Source: Cercospora beticola | Taxonomy: Eukaryota; Ascomycota; Dothideomycetes; Mycosphaerellales; Mycosphaerellaceae | NCBI RefSeq assembly: GCF_033473495.1 | Contig: NC_088936.1 | Coordinates: 1,364,001 to 1,428,000, forward strand | Direction: 5' to 3' | Length of the DNA stretch: 64,000 nucleotides | In this document: positions 43,573-51,247 of the stretch, piece by piece | How the letters are laid out: each line of letters starts with the position of its first letter | How positions within the stretch are numbered: position 1 is the first letter of the stretch | The notes under the pieces: generated by a model | What the model was told of the DNA's origin: nothing | Database searches by the model: none | What the model saw: the letters and a program-made list of their open reading frames with translations, nothing else | Position numbers and translations under genes: made by a program

Positions 43573-46289
43573 TCAAGGCAGATAAGCACCGCCCGCAACG
43601 ACCAGATTCATCTGTGTGAAGCCGACCTTGTAGACCGGACTCTTCTTGGTCGGAAAAGCCGAGATCTGGTCGGGTGATACCACGACGTCCTTCTTGGACT
43701 TGCCTTTCGCGACAGCACCTCCTGTTGCCGCGCCATCGATCTTGGCACCCGCTCCACCTTCGCCTACGACCTTGCCTTGGCCTTCCTTGTTGGGCTGCAC
43801 GTCCCAGACACGGACAGTTCCGTCCGCGCCGCCAGAGACGAGCACGCTCGACTCGATGCTCCAATCCAGACTCCAGATTCCGCCTCGACCGTGTCCACGC
43901 ATGCGCTTCACCAAGCGACCGCGAGCTAGGTCCCAGAGCAGAATCTCTCCTCTATCGTCGGCGCTGGCGAGAATCTTCCCGCTCGGCGAGCACGCAAGAG
44001 CAGTGACGTTGCCAACGTGGCCGGTGAAGATACGCACAGCTTGTCCTCTTGAGATGTCCCACATGCGCACTGTCCTGTCTGGCGCACCCGATCCCGTGAA
44101 GATGTACGCGCTGTTCGGATGCCATGCCACTGTGTCTACATCCGAGTCGTGCCCAACGAAGAGCCGTAGTGGTGCAATCTGCGGCGTACTCCAGAGTCGA
44201 GCTGTTCGGTCTGCAGAGCATGATGTGAAGTAGTGGCCATACGGTGAGAAGCGGACGTCCCAGACAGGCAGATTGTGGGATTTGTAGACCACCAAGTTTG
44301 TCCATGTGTCTAATGACCACAGTCGGATAGTGCAGTCCGCTGAGCAAGATAGTAAGTATCTTGGGCGCGAGTCTGATGAAGTCGAGTTGTTCGTATGCCC
44401 ATTCGTCTGTGGTTCTGGAATAGCAATCGATGGCGAAAACGAAAGCCCGTAGACTGGGCCGGAGTGTCCGATCAAGCGCCGTGACGAAGATGGCTGGAAG
44501 TTCGGAGGGTCAGTAGGTGAAGTCAGAGTCTGCCCATCCAGTGACCAGACTCTGATATATGACTCTGCCGATCCGATGGCGACGAGGCAATTGTCGCCGG
44601 AGAATTCGATGCAGTTGACGCTGTCATAAGTGTTGTGGAATGTGAACATTGTCACGCTCACACCAGGCCCGACGCCGCCAGTCTTGTCTTCGATGCGGAA
44701 GCGGTCACGGTTCTCCTTGACCCTCTGCACCTCCATAGCCACGTCTCGTGCCGTGGAAGGTGGGAAAGGGAGTGTATCTCGAGATGGTGCCGCGTCAGCA
44801 GTCTCTTCGCGCTTTATGCGCTGCTCAAACTCATCTATCAGAGAGTTTTGGCCTGCCCCGGGCGGATGTGCTGCGTCATGTTCTTGCAATTCTGCCTTGA
44901 CGTCCTCCAGCAAGTCATTCTCCATGGGTAGTGGACCAAGAGCAAGCTTTGACAGTACTGAAGGTGCCTTGGGGTCGAGGTTGGCAGATCCGGGATTATG
45001 ACCAGGAATGCCTTCGTCCTCTGCCGGCACGTCTTCTTGCCCGTCTCGGGTTGCTAGCATTTTCGCCAGACTCCGCTCAGTGCCGGCAGCGGCGCGATCC
45101 ACTATGCGCACATCCAAATTCTGTGAGATGATATGGGTGATGACCTTGCCGCCTTCGTTATCTTTGCTCTCCAAGTGCATCATGAGCGTTTGGAAAGCCA
45201 TGTTGCTAAGTGTCAGGCGGTACTTGTTGTTGCGATACAGGTCCGCGACCGCGTTGTCCTGCGCGTGCTCCGGCTCGTACAATTTGGAGAGCGCTCGCAA
45301 ATCATCTGGATTTTCGCGCTCGAAGTGGCTCCGAAAACGTGTGAAGAATTCCTCTGCATCTCGAGAATAAAACTCGCCGATGCATTGCAGGTAGGAGTAC
45401 ACAAAGAGTGGCCAGAGTAGACGCTTCAGCTCTGGCTTGTAGATGTCCAAGACGTTGTCGATCCAGTTGGTGACGAGGTCGAAAGCGCGCCCATACTTCT
45501 TGCCGCCGATTTCATCTATCGAGGTGGCGACGATGTTGCCGTTGGCGTCGGTGTTTGCACTCTCTTTGCGGAGCATGGCCTCGGTACGGCTGTACCCTTT
45601 CTTAGAGAGATATTCAAGTACCTGGGGAATGAGGTCAGCCATGATGCCGGTGGAAGTTGTTTGACGCGCAGTGATGAACTAGTTGACGAAGTGCAGGATC
45701 CGAGTAAACGGGGTTGCGCTGTGCGGAGGAAGACGGCTCCATCGTGTTGACGGGAGGAAGCGCTCTGCCGGGCTCGTGAGGACTGACGTGAAATCTCCTT
45801 CAATGTCGATGTCGATGTCGTGGGAAAGCCAGCAAGACAGACATCGGATTGAGCTCTGGTGGGTGCCTTCTGGCGACGGATGATCGAGTGTCTCTAGCGG
45901 CAGTGGCGACAGATCGGAAGGCGCTTTCGAGTCATTGCCGGCTTTGCCTCAATAGCAACATCTCGCGTTGCTTTCTCTATCCGAATTCGTCCAAGTCCAA
46001 TTCGATAGAGCGCCGTCGCTGGATGCATGTGGGCTCGCGCGGTCCTTGGACGCCAGTAGGAAAGGTTCGTGCGATGCGCGACGCTTGATGGGGGGCGCAT
46101 CCAACAGAGAACAAATCGTGAAAATCAACGCGACAACAAAGGCACACTTACTATTTGATTCAGATTCTGCTGTTGGTTGTTCTGGCCGCCCGCGCCGCCT
46201 GGCGCATTTGGGGGAGGAGCGCCCATGCCGCCTGCACTGGAAGGTCCAACGCTCGTTGTGCGCGACGGCGGTAACGGCTGCGACGCCAT
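43573..46289 (-). CDS. TAF5: Transcription initiation factor TFIID subunit 5 (also SAGA)
   Basis: Two exons, 46289-46152 and 45621-43573, joined over a 530-bp intron (GTAAGT donor, GGCTGAC branch, CCCCAG acceptor). The product is 728 aa. Exon 1 gives a Gly/Gln-rich N-terminus ending NQQQNLNQI; exon 2 continues VLEYLSKKGYSRTEAMLRKES, a LisH-type motif. An apparent start MADLIPQ just before VLEYL is formed by the intron's 3' end (branch and acceptor) and is rejected. The TAF5 N-terminal domain follows (~95-230: DIYKPELKRLLWPLFVYSYL...). Six WD40 repeats make the C-terminal propeller (GHSGPVYGLSF, SHNLPVWDVRF, GHDSDVDTVAW, GHVGNVTALAC, GHGRGGIWSLDW). Taf5 scaffolds TFIID and SAGA. Divergent from MED11. 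Confidence 0.95.
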
Positions 46290-46529
46290 GATGAATACTG
46301 AACGGCCTTCACATGTGAAGTGGGAAGATGAATAAAGATGATCTCGCGAATGATGTGAAGTTGTAGTGGAAATGGAGGGGAGGCTCGAAGTGAAGCTGTG
46401 CAGGGTTCCAGCGGCTCGGCTCATCCCGCCGCTAAGCGGTACCTGCAGCTGCAGCTGTCGCATCACTTTGTCCATGCTGTATCGCGAAGCTACGCGCTAG
46501 TTCACGATGCTGGGGAACTGAGACTCGCG
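46290..46529. promoter_or_regulatory. Divergent promoter between TAF5 and MED11
   Basis: Only 240 bp separate the two outward-facing start codons. Both products belong to the RNA polymerase II initiation machinery, so shared control is plausible. GCAGCTGCAGCTG at about 46444-46456 is an imperfect palindromic run. No TATA box was seen. Confidence 0.55.
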
Positions 46530-47096
46530 ATGGCGCAACAAAATCGGACCTTCACACCAGAAGAGCGCATCGACGAGCTCTCGGAGATCAACCAAGATGT
46601 CTCGAAACTTGTCACTTCTGCCGGCCAGGCAATTCATGCGCTCACGAACCGACCATTAAACCTGTACGCTTCCGGGGACGATGAAGACGAGCAAATGGCG
46701 GGCACAAATAACGACACCGTCGAAGATCGAAAAGCCCAATTCAAGGACAACACCGAGTCTTTCTTCACTCACTTGCAGTCCATCTTCGTCATGCTCCGCC
46801 GACAGACCTACGCCCTGGAAGAAGCTGGTATAGTCACACCTGATCCACTCGCGTTACCTGAGCAGCCGAAACCAGTACAGGCGCCGGCTCAGTCGACCCC
46901 GAGAGGGTTCGCGCCAGTTCCGAAAGAGCAGCAGCTGGATCCGGAGAGGATCAAGAATGGTGGCTTGGGACACCTCGATATTGGCTGGCTGAATAGTCGC
47001 GGCAACAAAGTCGGCGCGGAGAAGGAGGCTGAGCTTGTGCAAGAGGCGAAGGCTCTGCTTGAAGATGTCCTGAGAAGTGAGGATTCAATTGACTGA
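46530..47096 (+). CDS. MED11: Mediator complex subunit 11
   Basis: Single-exon ORF of 188 aa from ATG 46530; the reading frame is open further upstream but the preceding residues lie in the divergent promoter. Med11 is a head-module subunit of Mediator that dimerises with Med22 and contacts TFIIH. The N-terminal helix pair is typical: EERIDELSEINQDVSKLVTSAGQAIHALTNR and FKDNTESFFTHLQSIFVMLRRQTYALEEAGIVTP. The C-terminal extension (~120-188) is Pro-rich, then acidic-helical (EKEAELVQEAKALLEDVL), longer than in yeast (about 131 aa) but common in filamentous fungi. Nuclear. Confidence 0.88.
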   Translation: MAQQNRTFTPEERIDELSEINQDVSKLVTSAGQAIHALTNRPLNLYASGDDEDEQMAGTNNDTVEDRKAQFKDNTESFFTHLQSIFVMLRRQTYALEEAGIVTPDPLALPEQPKPVQAPAQSTPRGFAPVPKEQQLDPERIKNGGLGHLDIGWLNSRGNKVGAEKEAELVQEAKALLEDVLRSEDSID

Positions 47097-47820
47097 GAGC
47101 GGATGAGAAACGTGATGGACAATATCAATGTCGCTCCATCTGCACGTTGAAGCCAGGGATACATTTGGTCTTCGCATGGATTGGGTAGCGCGATCCTCCT
47201 TCTGCGATCGCTGCCATAATATGGTCGAAACTCTCGTGGAACTGATGCCACACTCCATGGCCTTTCGCGCCTGACCCCGGACAACGACAGCACACACCTT
47301 ACATGGCCCAGTGCGATGCAGACGAACCATCGTCTCAACTGTACCTCTTCGGAAAGGAGTCCAGTGGCCCAGGCGCTCAATTTCGGGCGCGCAGAATATA
47401 TCCGTCGACTCTGTTTGGCAGAAGGCGATGTGACATCGAGACTACAATGGACGCCGAGAGGTTCAATGGCATACGTCCGCTATGTGGTTGCTTATCTGCC
47501 CTCCCCGTGCCGAGCGGACAATCGGGTTGATGACTTTGTGGCCGACCAAAGCTTTGAAGCACGGAGAAGAAGTTTGAAACAAGGCACCGCCCTTCGGAGA
47601 TGTGCAGTGGAGGAGGCATGTGGAGCTTTCAGCAACACTTGGAGCATTATACACAATATACGAACAAGCCTCTTTCATCACACGTTTCGGACGATCGGAT
47701 GCGTTCTTTCCCTTGTCTCAACTTCTTCGTCGATTTCACAGATCGAAACTGAAGTGATCCCTGTTCCCACGACCACAGACGGAATCAGGGGTCATGTGTG
47801 CTTTTCAGCATCAACAACCC
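47097..47820. other. Intergenic region between MED11 and the structured-RNA array
   Basis: Short ORFs only. No further copy of the array unit could be found at the expected position about 300 bp before 47821. Confidence 0.5.
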
Positions 47821-47973
47821 AACGATCAGCCTTGGTCTAGTGGTATCACGTTAGTCGACTTGCAGACGTCGCCGGACACACGTTGGACGAGACGAGCTCC
47901 TCATCGTGTCAAGCTAGGATATGAGTGAGTTGGTTACCTGTCAACATCACTCGGCCAAGGCTGATTGTTTTGC
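47821..47973 (+). ncRNA. Putative structured RNA, unit 1
   Basis: The 5' arm AACGATCAGCCTTGGTC pairs with the 3' arm GGCCAAGGCTGATTGTT without mismatch apart from G-U pairs, and the pairing extends inward through TAGTGG and TCACT. This is the best-paired closing stem of the six. The A-box-like TGGTCTAGTGG fits the TRGYNNARNNGG consensus. TTTT at 47968-47971, at the outer end of the stem, could terminate RNA polymerase III. No clear B-box was found. Confidence 0.65.
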
Positions 47974-48120
47974 TCTGCGTTCTTAGATATCTGGCCCTTT
48001 TTGTCCTTGTGAAACTAATTTTCGCTCAAAGCTCACAGCATCGAATCTGACTGCTGCAATGTCTCAATCCATGCTTTCCCCATGGCGCTATTCATATACA
48101 ATTCTCACCGTCAAATCCAC

Positions 48121-48278
48121 AACGACCGGCCTTGGTCTGGCGGTCTTAGCGTAAGTCTTGCAATCATGTACGCTGCTTTATTGGATCGCTGGAGTGATGA
48201 CACGAAAAACGTCGTCGAGACTTCGTTTCTGTCAGCAGTCGTCATCCGAAAGCGCTAGACTATTGTCCATTGTTTTGC
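48121..48278 (+). ncRNA. Putative structured RNA, unit 2
   Basis: The closing stem is kept by AACGACCGGCCTTGG and TATTGTCCATTGTT with several mismatches, but inner pairing is strong: GTCTGGCG with CGCTAGAC. An internal hairpin AGCGTA...TACGCT is perfect. The A-box-like TGGTCTGGCGG has one deviation from consensus. TTTT lies at 48273-48276. Confidence 0.6.
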
Positions 48279-48406
48279 CTGTTCTTGTCTAATTGAACGC
48301 AGCACTCTCCATAGAGATACGTGCGTCTTGATTATGCTGTCGCTGAATTTTCTTCGTCTTCACTGTGGATCAGTGTTGATAAGTGGGCAAGCTTGTGAAC
48401 GTCCCC

Positions 48407-48564
48407 AACAATCACCATTGGCTCAGCGGTACAAGCGTAAGTCGTGCCAAACGTACGCTGTTGTATACGATGACCGAGAAGACTAAAACGAAGAGGTTCC
48501 TTGAAGGTCTGCGTTCGGTTCTTCCATTCATCATAAGCCGCTTGGCCATTGCTGATTGTTTTGC
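48407..48564 (+). ncRNA. Putative structured RNA, unit 3
   Basis: AACAATCACCATTGGC pairs with GGCCATTGCTGATTGTT, where the first six bases changed together with their partners compared with unit 1 (C-A-A-T-C with G-A-T-T-G). AGCGG pairs with CCGCT further in. The internal hairpin AGCGTA...TACGCT is perfect. The A-box-like TGGCTCAGCGG fits the consensus. TTTT lies at 48559-48562. Confidence 0.65.
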
Positions 48565-48565
<1 letters not shown>

Positions 48566-48595
<30 letters not shown>

Positions 48596-48598
48596 CTT
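48566..48598 (+). repeat. (CTT)11 microsatellite
   Basis: Eleven perfect CTT triplets start right after the 3' end of array unit 3, in the spacer before unit 4. Confidence 0.95.
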
Positions 48599-48712
48599 TA
48601 TTTTTTCGCCTATATCTATCCATATCTCGCCGCATGCCATGGTCTCTCTCTTACTCCCAGCATTCTTGATGAAGATCGGTCATTATGGGTGTTTTTCTTT
48701 TTACATCATCAT

Positions 48713-48867
48713 CCAATCGGACCTAGTCTAGCGGTAAGATCACAAGTCGTACAAGTGTGTGCGCTGATCAGCTTGACCAACAGCCGCGGGGACCTGAAGA
48801 CGCATCACGATTTCTTCCAGTAGTCCTGGGCGCCAGTGGAATGCTTGGCTATTGTCGATTGTTTTGC
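48713..48867 (+). ncRNA. Putative structured RNA, unit 4
   Basis: CCAATCGG pairs with the reverse-complementary TCGATTG near the ends, and TAGTCTAGC pairs with GCTTGGCTA inside. The internal block GATCACAAGTCG...TGTGCGCTGATC can fold as in units 2, 3 and 5. The A-box-like TAGTCTAGCGG fits the consensus. TTTT lies at 48862-48865. The middle of the closing stem is disrupted. Confidence 0.6.
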
Positions 48868-48994
48868 TTCACTTTTACTCCGTGTACCCATCTTCCAACT
48901 TGGAGAGACTCGTTCACCTGTCTTGTGCACGTGTTTGACTAGCTGTCGGGCATTCCGACTAGCCCCTATAAGTGGCTGGAGTTTGCTTCTACTC

Positions 48995-49143
48995 AACGAT
49001 CAGTCTTAGCCTAGTGGTCTGATCGTAAGTCGACGTTCAAGTACGCTGATCAACTTGGATAGCAGCGAGAGCACCTCGGAATCAACTTTGATTCCCAAAG
49101 TTCCAATCTGCCTCAACACGCTCGGCCATTTCTAATGTTTTGC
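48995..49143 (+). ncRNA. Putative structured RNA, unit 5
   Basis: The 5' arm AACGATCAGTCTTAGCC is well conserved, while the 3' arm CGGCCATTTCTAATGTT has lost one base and pairs worse, mainly through the inner TAGTGG/CGCTC part. An internal hairpin is strong: TGATCGTA with TACGCTGATCA, with a 3-nt bulge. The A-box-like TAGCCTAGTGG fits the consensus. TTTT lies at 49138-49141. This may be the most decayed unit. Confidence 0.55.
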
Positions 49144-49289
49144 AACATTCATTTTGCCTTGCCAAAAGCCACTTGGTTGCTATGCTCGACATCGAAACCA
49201 TCGCCATGTTGCAATATCGCGAGCGCCATGTTTGCTGTACTCTTGGGGTGTGTGAACATCCATAGGTAGCTCTGATTGAACGCACCTCC

Positions 49290-49439
49290 AACGATCAGTC
49301 TTGGCCGAGCGGTACAGCTGTAAGTCGCTCTGTAACGAGCGTTGCTGAATCCAGTCCGATGTCGCTGCGAGTAACACCGTCGCTAGTGTTAGAATGTCGC
49401 TTCAGCCACGGACCGCTTTCCCATCGCCGATTGTTTTGC
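49290..49439 (+). ncRNA. Putative structured RNA, unit 6
   Basis: AACGATCAG pairs with CCGATTGTT at the outer end, and AGCGGT pairs with ACCGCT at the inner end, where both sides changed together relative to unit 1 (TAGTGG/TCACT). The middle of the stem is interrupted. The A-box-like TGGCCGAGCGG fits the consensus and GTAAGTCG is kept. TTTT lies at 49434-49437. Confidence 0.6.
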
Positions 49440-49685
49440 ACGTTCTTTTGCCTTGCTCACCAAGCTTTTGCTGCTTCCATTGGTGCACAAGTGACTGTGG
49501 TCCTCTGTGATCACAAGCGACAACCTTGGGTGAGGCTCAAAAATTGGTTAGCCTTCATATACCGATTGCATCTTACGCCTTTAGAATGAGCGGCATTTTG
49601 CAACTTGCACGCTGACAATGTGCAGCTGAACATGCCTTGCGGTTACTACCTCTCTGTACCCTATGTCTGCTCTTTGTCCTGCTGC

Positions 49686-50987
49686 TCAGTCCACATAGAC
49701 TCTCCATCCATATGCCCTTCCAAACCACTTTCTCGCTAATTGTGCTCCAGCCGCCGTGGGTTGAGAGAACGCGATGTCCTGTTTCCTTCCAATCTTCCTC
49801 AGAGAATCACCTGTCGTGGGTTGTTTCCCATCTTCTCGGGACCCGATCGTGGAATTGTGCCGGTTGATCGCAGTGTTCAAAAGACATCGAGCTATGCCTT
49901 GTCCTCTCACGGAAGAAGAAGTCCAGATCCTCGAGATGCCCATGACAGCAGAATGTTTGGACTCGGAGAGCTCGATTGGATGTGCCGCTGCTTCTTCAAT
50001 CTCGTCTTGAATAGCTTTTGCAGCATCTGCTTCTTGCTGCTTCCGTGCTCTGAGTTTCTCCAGTGCAGACTGCGTTCTCGTGGTAGCTTCTGCTTTCTCC
50101 CTCGTTGGGGTTGCCGACCTCTTGTCTTTTTCTAGAGCCTTCGGCCTCACCACCTCCAATGCTTGCTCAATCCTCTTCACCAGCAAGAACGCCACACACT
50201 TCGTCCCTCGGACATACAAGAAACACTTATATGTTGGATCGTCCGGAGCCTCTCCGCCGTCCCGCCTTCTTCCCTGCCAAATCTCCTTCTCCGGGATCTC
50301 CACAGCTCCCAGCTCCCTCTGCACAATCTCCAAGACCTCCTGTGCCTTTCTCTTCCGATGAACAGAGTTCCCACAGTCCATATACACAATCGCGTCTCCC
50401 ACTTTCACTCCTTTGAGGACACATAGTGCCTTGTCTTCTTGCCTCACCTTCACCACAAAGTCCTTGCCGACATCATACCCATCCACATTCTGCTTATGGT
50501 ACTTATCGTGCAGTTTCCGGTCTTCTGCAGAGGAAGCGACGTACTGCATTCCACATGTGAGACATTTCTTTTGGACTTTCTGGCCGAGGCTCATTTGCAT
50601 TTGTTGGAGACCATCGTTGGCAGAGTTATACGGTTTGGAGGTCTTCGAAGGGCGAGGGTTGTCGGTGGAAGGCGTTAGAGGTTTGCGCTTGCCGAGGATG
50701 GAGAACACGTTCTTGAAAGGTCCTGCTGTTGTCGATGTTTTTGAGACGGACTTGTTGTTGCGAGTTAACAAGGACTCGTCTTGCTTCCTTTCCCATGGAA
50801 AGGCGTCCGGAGGACTGCTCGGCGGACTGCTGACTCCATTGGCAGCGGATTCGCTGAAGATGGCTCGTTGGCTCGACGCGCGTGGTGGTGTTGAGCTCAT
50901 CATCGATGCATTGTATCTGAATGTTGACAAGTCGAAGTCCTCACGACGCGTCGAAAGTTCACGCGTCGATGAGCTCATCCCTGCCAT
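49686..50987 (-). CDS. ECO1: Sister chromatid cohesion N-acetyltransferase Eco1/ESCO
   Basis: Single-exon gene. The first ATG is at 50987 (MAGMSSSTREL), giving 433 aa. Eco1 acetylates Smc3 during S phase to lock cohesin on DNA. The N-terminal ~115 residues are Ser/Thr-rich and disordered. A C2H2-like zinc finger follows (~123-155: KKCLTCGMQYVASSAEDRKLHDKYH). The acetyltransferase core is split by a long Lys/Arg/Glu-rich insert (~275-335). After it, HSAVMGISRIWTSSSVRGQGIARCLLNTAI contains the acetyl-CoA binding R-G-x-G-I-A, and DIAFSQPTAAGAQLARKWFG contains the conserved FSQPT. Both C-terminal blocks are intact. Nuclear. Divergent from DAL3. Confidence 0.94.
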   Translation of the reverse strand: MAGMSSSTRELSTRREDFDLSTFRYNASMMSSTPPRASSQRAIFSESAANGVSSPPSSPPDAFPWERKQDESLLTRNNKSVSKTSTTAGPFKNVFSILGKRKPLTPSTDNPRPSKTSKPYNSANDGLQQMQMSLGQKVQKKCLTCGMQYVASSAEDRKLHDKYHKQNVDGYDVGKDFVVKVRQEDKALCVLKGVKVGDAIVYMDCGNSVHRKRKAQEVLEIVQRELGAVEIPEKEIWQGRRRDGGEAPDDPTYKCFLYVRGTKCVAFLLVKRIEQALEVVRPKALEKDKRSATPTREKAEATTRTQSALEKLRARKQQEADAAKAIQDEIEEAAAHPIELSESKHSAVMGISRIWTSSSVRGQGIARCLLNTAINRHNSTIGSREDGKQPTTGDSLRKIGRKQDIAFSQPTAAGAQLARKWFGRAYGWRVYVD

Positions 50988-51247
50988 CGCGCTAGCCGAG
51001 AAGCTTAACAAGCATAAAGCTTTCGCCTATCGCAGACCCCACCTTGCTTCCCTCATCTCTCACCTGTCCGAACATGTCTCCATCAAACCCACAATCGACA
51101 TCCTCCAAAGTCATTGCGTGGCTAAAGAAGACCTTCATCAGACCACCTGGCGACGGTTACAGCCCAAATAGCCAATCTGACAACCTCGAGCCCCGACATC
51201 CTCGCTTCAAGTCCCATTAGTAGTGCCTTTGCTGCAGCCTCACAAAC
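50988..51247. promoter_or_regulatory. Divergent promoter between ECO1 and DAL3
   Basis: 260 bp separate two outward-facing starts whose products have unrelated jobs (cohesion and purine catabolism). No clear TATA box or operator was identified, although GATA-type sites would be expected for nitrogen control of DAL3. Confidence 0.5.

Follow-up and report, generated by a model that had tools for sequence, protein, structure and literature searches.

The six tandem units at positions 47821-49438 of the window, a stretch of 64,000 nucleotides from Cercospora beticola (NC_088936.1, positions 1,364,001 to 1,428,000), are part of a genome-wide family that reaches far beyond this site. We consider it probable, at about 80%, that the array belongs to a large and apparently undescribed family of structured noncoding RNA (ncRNA) genes with at least 25 loci, each gene being about 160 nt long and transcribed individually by RNA polymerase III (Pol III). 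Computation established the family, its fold of two stems (P1 and P2), the RNA strand, and the promoter- and terminator-like signals, and these signals suggest that Pol III transcribes the family. A typical gene would carry a TATA-like element approximately 27 bp upstream, a CAAC start, an internal A-box, and a TTTTGC terminator. P1 would close the RNA, which would also contain the hairpin P2, with bulges; a longer and poorly conserved arm, P3, would follow P2 and precede the 3' strand of P1.

Extent and divergence of the family

The original prediction, which had described six foldback RNAs at a single site, proposed a covariance model and a wider search; when both were run, six copies became at least 135, and no Rfam family was matched. 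The genome (36.07 Mb in 10 contigs, here labelled C1, C2, and so on, with the window on C2) holds 135 units in 25 loci, comprising 129 units in 23 loci and six more, two of which stand at new loci. This count is a lower bound because several arrays run to the edge of the fetched stretches. Of the 129 units, 123 reach a length of 140 nt and 119 a score of 20 bits with model R2, described below. The 129 include six partial units but exclude rows on the antisense strand, overlapping duplicates, and sense rows that were faint or short (e.g. L076:897-1055, L076:2108-2262, L085:1-59, and L099:1356-1394); one of seven later matches merely completes a unit that was already counted.

Units were located with sequence patterns and with two covariance models. 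A pattern combining the A-box with AGTC matched 19 places in the genome versus five for the reversed pattern, and these 19 comprise the six window units, nine places in a second array on C2 (473-476 kb), three elsewhere, and one tRNA. A 3'-end pattern matched 26 places versus four for its reversed control, two further patterns matched 32 versus one and 52 versus five, and the last two matched 71 versus 22 and 89 versus 46, finding or lengthening arrays on C1, C2, C4, C5, C8, and C9. Since the reversed patterns indicate that many matches with two mismatches arise by chance, only places supported by R2 were counted. The first covariance model, R1, was built from the six units and recognised newly found ones; R2 was built from an alignment of 55 units (A2) and detected units outside its training set, to which 80 of the 135 do not belong. 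The specificity of R2 was checked on the window and 33 other loci (30 tRNA, two 5S, and one IMG/VR contig). It recovered all six units with two echoes on the antisense strand, and beyond these gave three matches with E-values of 0.19-0.65; every match with E ≤ 0.1 was a window unit or its antisense. Three places matched by the 3'-end pattern (L083, L084, and L064) gave no R2 match below E 0.04, and an IMG/VR contig with one pattern match (L079) was rejected, as it matched neither R1 nor R2. The pattern search of GTDB genome contigs gave no match.

Nearly all units (126 of 129) sit in multi-copy arrays, and all 20 multi-copy arrays among the 23 loci run head to tail, antisense echoes having been removed beforehand. 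The median spacing is 283 bp, with quartiles of 273 and 303 bp (97 of 106 spacings, those below 420 bp), and the median unit length is 161 nt. At 113.7-120.7 kb on C5, no more than 4 kb separates two arrays that occupy opposite strands. The 123 full-length units have diverged strongly, with a median pairwise identity of 42% and a maximum of 70%. For 79 of 120 units, the nearest relative comes from their own array, compared with 6.5 when labels are shuffled; thus, arrays seem to grow locally, and copies are not kept alike.

Conserved fold and Pol III signals

Selection on RNA structure had been proposed from the window alone, where six pairs changed on both sides and 10 of 500 shuffles scored equally high, which is modest support. 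The decisive case for the proposal is made by genome-wide covariation tests of two larger alignments, which support a fold shared by the family that consists of the terminal stem P1, the hairpin P2 with a near-invariant UAAGUC, and the fast-changing arm P3. A2 is a MAFFT alignment made without structure and omits one 130-nt match (C5:43911) as well as partial and fragmentary matches. A3, which was likewise aligned blind to structure, holds 57 of the 80 non-training units, the remainder being partial, fetched later, or left out, and one duplicate row was removed.

Ranked by a G-test with average product correction, the 11325 column pairs of A2 are led by three neighbouring P2 pairs, 43-66, 45-64, and 44-65. 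P1 pairs (13-174 and 11-176) and pairs in the lower stem of P2 (32-73 and 34-71) also rank high; several other high-ranked pairs, within the A-box region or P3, do not pair and are taken as subfamily marks. In A3, P1 and P2 pairs occupy ranks 1-4 of 10153. Cells in which both partners had changed numbered 225 in A2 (97.6 ± 10.6 in shuffles) and 205 in A3 (88.1 ± 9.2), and none of 500 shuffles was as high in either case. The share of cells that pair in the named structure, which was itself read from the alignments, was 79.3% in A2 and 82.8% in A3, compared with 69.5% and 71.5% in shuffles. The shuffles ignore relatedness, whereas versions with a slid pairing partner keep it, and sliding lowered pairing to 30-47% and left 56-99 (A2) and 76-107 (A3) double-changed cells. 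Counting the pairs that show at least one double change gave no excess over shuffles (99 of 500 as high in A2 and 319 of 500 in A3). G-U cells outnumbered A-C cells by 278:86 and 321:81, which identifies the RNA strand as the strand that carries the promoter.

The base opposite the G of UAAGUC suggests that this G pairs across P2, as the combinations were G-C 46 and A-U 6 in A3 (n = 57), and G-C 41, G-U 7, and A-U 2 in A2 (n = 55). A single bulged U of P2 is present in 57 of 57 units in A3 and 54 of 55 in A2. P2 would thus hold a UAA bulge, a G-C pair, the single bulged U, and a C-G pair. The P3 arms exceed shuffles only a little in folding stability (mean z -0.97 ± 0.11 over 123 units, with 22 at z ≤ -2), and their longest helix, at 6.3 versus 6.0 in shuffles, tends toward the middle of the arm. 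By eye, the P3 tips of several units (arrays at C5:4566k and C1:4990k and on C6 and C7) read AGGC...GCCT or AGGCC...AGACCT, which hints at a tip conserved within individual arrays. Whole units fold with a mean z of -2.36, although folding energy alone is a weak argument because the antisense strands reach -1.48.

Promoter- and terminator-like signals recur at the unit boundaries. The letters ATA occur at -32 to -19 in 88 of the 120 units with full flanks (among 123), compared with 8, 9, and 9 of 120 in three control segments of the same width, and this upstream region was covered by none of the search patterns. In the array at C2:473-476 kb (L035-L043), several units have an upstream GTGAGRGTACTTGAA-like block in place of the TATATG-like letters seen elsewhere. 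At least 74 of the 123 units start with CAAC. An exact A-box is present in 46 of 123 units (0.9 ± 0.9 in shuffles) and an A-box within one mismatch in 104 (10.6 ± 2.6 in shuffles), while 19 lack any. The exact boxes begin mainly at nt 14 (34 units) or nt 22-23 (12 units) of the unit; presence at shifting positions is what would be expected of a promoter element. A run of four T ends 115 of 123 units, and in 47 of 64 units there is a second such run no more than 40 nt further on, where 24.8 would be expected.

The tRNA and 5S loci of this genome offer a comparison, once three mitochondrial-type tRNA loci are excluded from the 32. TTTTGC lies within 60 nt downstream in 15 of the 29, and many of the tRNA and both 5S loci have similar TATA-like elements upstream (CATATT, TATATG, and others, by eye). 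Passages of PMC7279448 report that tRNA genes of plants and Schizosaccharomyces pombe have a TATA box at -30/-24. At C2:3502.6-3503.1 kb (L014, L022, and L025), three AT-rich, mitochondrial-looking tRNA matches lie within 0.6 kb of one another, which looks like a mitochondrial insertion into this contig of nuclear size. With this, the signals on which the original prediction had based Pol III transcription (A-box and T-run end), together with the TATA-like element, stood up in the genome-wide tests, and transcription itself is what such signals would predict.

Several points weigh against this reading of the family as Pol III-transcribed RNA genes. The counts for the A-box, AGTC, and the 3' end are partly circular because the search patterns held these letters, and the paired share in A3 leans upward because its units were picked by R2, which scores pairing. 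The B-box typical of type 2 Pol III promoters is missing, with no signal for it detected in 64 units (mean best score 5.53 versus 5.50 ± 0.13 in shuffles), where the same scan gave 7.4-10.2 for 27 tRNA loci and 5.5 for the two 5S loci. P3 has little conserved structure. Matches at the faint end of the count (13-16 bits) may represent decayed units or chance, the model E-values are rough owing to a short calibration, and the family is known here from one genome and from sequence alone. Concerning the B-box, an isolated single unit on C5 (L059:1499-1658; C5:1629993-1630152, minus strand) has a B-box-like GGTTCGAACAC right after P2, unlike most of the family.

The letters of UAAGUC are kept amid stem letters that exchange freely, which is the trace expected of a protein or tertiary contact. 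Within the reading of the family as Pol III RNA genes, and more speculatively, we see an even chance that, much like Dictyostelium Class I RNAs or Y RNAs, P1 and P2 form the docking site of a shared protein, that the RNAs belong to one class of small ribonucleoprotein, and that P3 makes a copy-specific contact. It is conceivable, if somewhat doubtful, that a constant protein-binding core carries at least 135 different P3 arms that diversify in the tandem arrays, each addressing another partner. If that were true, the family would resemble a large repertoire of variable payloads or guides, each RNA with its own promoter, more than a set of redundant copies.

Alternative explanations and related RNA classes

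Among the roles put forward in the original prediction, a fast-evolving ncRNA cluster fits best. A second proposal was that Pol III transcribes the units as precursors of microRNA-like RNAs (milRNAs), in which Dicer would cut P3 (or P1) and Argonaute would use the products. We regard this as unlikely, but it has a fungal precedent, as passages of PMC3547838 describe the major milRNAs of Neurospora as dependent on Pol III and mark TATA-like elements, along with putative A- and B-boxes, at milR-1 to milR-4. These loci resemble the present family in being fungal and in combining Pol III with a TATA-like element, an A-box, and poly-T. Moreover, four Piwi-domain loci in this genome make RNA interference likely and keep the milRNA explanation alive, and some P3 arms are long hairpins, such as that of the unit at C5:4568471 (arm z -2.5). 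However, the low mean stability of P3 given above disfavours the proposal; in most units P3 is too weak a hairpin to be a convincing source of a miRNA/star duplex, and a minority of units could qualify. Conservation peaks in P1 and the P2 bulge and not in a duplex of about 22 bp, and the unit 3 region (48405-48580), used as a DNA query of the genome, matched only itself. The Neurospora milRNAs also come from hairpins and, in the same passages of PMC3547838, are not described as a homologous tandem family with a common fold, whereas P3 is weak here.

It is very unlikely that the units are a diverged form of a known RNA class, such as Y RNA or stem-bulge RNA, vault RNA, or small nucleolar RNA (snoRNA), that the Rfam models missed. 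A closing stem, Pol III signals, and a U-rich 3' end are common to Y and vault RNAs, and point in this direction. Y RNAs and nematode stem-bulge RNAs are Pol III transcripts with a terminal stem, a U-rich 3' end, and a variable loop region, but the conserved bulge here lies in the inner hairpin; vault RNA genes have an A-box, a B-box, and a terminal stem and are also transcribed by Pol III, but the present units show no B-box excess. For both classes, Rfam speaks against identity. At the gathering score, no Rfam family, tRNA included, matched in the 64-kb window or in 15 array loci, and permissive scans gave no match with E ≤ 1 in four array loci and only chance-level matches in the window. 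Two of these were set aside as chance, namely a turnip virus pseudoknot (E 3.1) that lies outside the units and sR52 (E 2.4), which falls on a CTT repeat. A six-frame search of the genome for the TROVE/Ro60 domain (PF05731) gave no match, while the same search was positive in one of 14 prokaryote control genomes; the major vault protein (PF01505) likewise gave no match in the genome, and none in the control genomes either. A box C/D guide was rejected, as inspection by eye showed a RUGAUGA-like word in none of the units but unit 2, and no snoRNA family matched. Mimicry of a splice donor was also rejected, since GTAAGT occurs only in 23 of 55 units and its first G stands in a G-U, A-U, or G-C pair.

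Among the literature matches listed, dictyostelid Class I RNAs are the closest published design, compared here by description, and the likeness to this different eukaryotic lineage would be one of design only. As far as passages of PMC7919456 describe them, Class I RNAs are 42-65 nt long, with an 11-nt motif and a Dictyostelium upstream sequence element (DUSE) approximately 60 nt upstream. They come from many different intergenic genes that are often clustered, with possible Pol III termination; the stem joining their ends is kept by compensatory change, and a conserved motif lies near the 5' stem while the remainder varies. Compensatory change in the terminal stem is present in this family as well (A2 and A3). 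In these same descriptions, Class I RNAs differ in length (median 161 nt here), in the 11-nt motif, which contrasts with a P2 hairpin bearing UAAGUC, and in the DUSE, which contrasts with a TATA-like element near -27 plus an A-box. No fungal RNA family of such a kind was found among the literature matches listed, a search that did not extend to subscription papers and supplements. Li and Breaker (2017; PMC5640933) screened fungal genomes computationally for structured RNAs in noncoding regions; no tandem Pol III family appears among their motif headings, the word "tandem" is absent from the main text, and their atypical snoRNA motif is described there as mostly intronic with C- and D-like boxes. 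The consulted portions of PMC9757828 and PMC6960233 mention no such family.

We consider it highly improbable that the arrays act as DNA, namely as clusters of TFIIIC/TFIIIB sites that insulate chromatin, with RNA as a by-product. Conservation of the TATA-like element and A-box, with much of the remainder free, would suit such sites, as would one-strand arrays with regular spacing. However, P1 and P2 pairs are kept through double changes and the bias of G-U over A-C is strong, and these weigh against that explanation because selection on DNA sites would be expected to give neither. The least probable explanation is a tRNA-related short interspersed nuclear element or a similar mobile element with copies decayed in place, for which the A-box, the T-run end, the many copies, and the 25 loci could speak, but against which stand head-to-tail units at near-constant spacing, the missing B-box excess, compensatory changes in both alignments, a TATA-like element kept at a fixed distance outside the transcribed unit (88 of 120), and the ceiling of 70% identity (n = 123), which gives no sign of recent copying. 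Given the head-to-tail arrays and the fixed element outside the RNA, a transposon family, named in the original prediction as a refutation of an RNA gene array, is unlikely. A tRNA-derived role, also suggested there, found nothing in its favour beyond the common A-box, as the Rfam tRNA and B-box scans were empty and ARAGORN, in its bacterial-code setting, found zero tRNAs in the 64-kb window.

The array in the window and its implications

The reading of the array as Pol III-transcribed ncRNA genes can be followed unit by unit in the window, where all six units lie on the plus strand and all served as training sequences of R2. Their recurrence is real, with start-to-start steps of 300, 286, 305, 283, and 295 bp between model matches. 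Unit 1, ordered P1-P2-P3-P1', occupies 47821-47972 (R2 match 47820-47975, 79.9 bits), and its closing stem is as originally claimed, with terminal inverted-repeat arms at 47821-47842 and 47948-47969 and a complementarity of 86%. Unit 2 occupies 48121-48277 (R2 48120-48280, 65.5 bits), unit 3 48407-48563 (48406-48566, 76.4 bits), unit 4 48712-48866 (48711-48869, 55.8 bits), unit 5 48995-49142 (48994-49145, 62.3 bits), and unit 6 49290-49438 (49289-49441, 68.6 bits). A (CTT)n simple repeat lies at about 48566-48599, immediately 3' of unit 3.

Some details of the original prediction required revision. The 12-nt A-box TRGYNNARNNGG, reported as exact in five of the six units, is exact in none. An 11-nt form, TRGYNNARNGG, fits five, namely unit 1 (TGGTCTAGTGG, 47833-47843), unit 3 (48419-48429), unit 4 (48724-48734), unit 5 (49007-49017), and unit 6 (49302-49312); the A-box of unit 2, read from the sequence (TGGTCTGGCGG, 48133-48143), departs once, with G instead of A. 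The block GTAAGTCG, described as nearly invariant, is exact only in units 3, 5, and 6, and the part that is constant family-wide is the near-invariant UAAGUC. Read from the sequence and from A2 (for unit 1 also from alignment A1), this P2 bulge motif is TTAGTC in unit 1 (47851-47856), CAAGTC in unit 4 (48743-48748), and TAAGTC in units 2 (48152-48157), 3 (48438-48443), 5 (49026-49031), and 6 (49321-49326). The inner hairpin AGCGTA...TACGCT is clear only in units 2 and 3, while across the family P2 keeps its pairing as its letters change.

The TTTT end was correctly assigned to all six units and lies inside a terminator-like TTTTGC, read from the sequence at 47968-47973, 48273-48278, 48559-48564, 48862-48867, 49138-49143, and 49434-49439 for units 1 to 6, respectively. 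A TATA-like element, which the original prediction did not mention, was found near -28 by the upstream scan for ATA in unit 2 (CATATAC, 48093-48099), unit 3 (GATAAG, 48378-48383), unit 5 (TATAAG, 48967-48972), and unit 6 (CATAGG, weak, 49261-49266), and is absent there in units 1 and 4. The array is flanked by a Med11-like gene (46398-47096, plus strand) and an ESCO-like acetyltransferase gene (49686-51011, minus strand). A TAF5-like protein is encoded at 43573-45642; its named relatives belong to Mycosphaerellaceae and kin and are from Zasmidium cellare (80%), Zymoseptoria tritici (78%), and Lecanosticta acicola (78%), four closer matches without a full organism name being left aside.

The RNA family is apparently new, with analogues of its general design in other lineages, and papers outside the literature searched may know it. 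At least 135 RNA genes in one fungal genome of 36 Mb, with no Rfam family match, would, if expressed, add a large class of Pol III RNA for fungi. The family also offers a natural experiment on how an RNA core stays fixed through compensatory changes as one of its arms diversifies and escapes homogenisation. It could explain part of the unannotated small-RNA reads in related fungi, and with existing RNA-seq, Pol III RNA repertoires beyond tRNA become directly testable.

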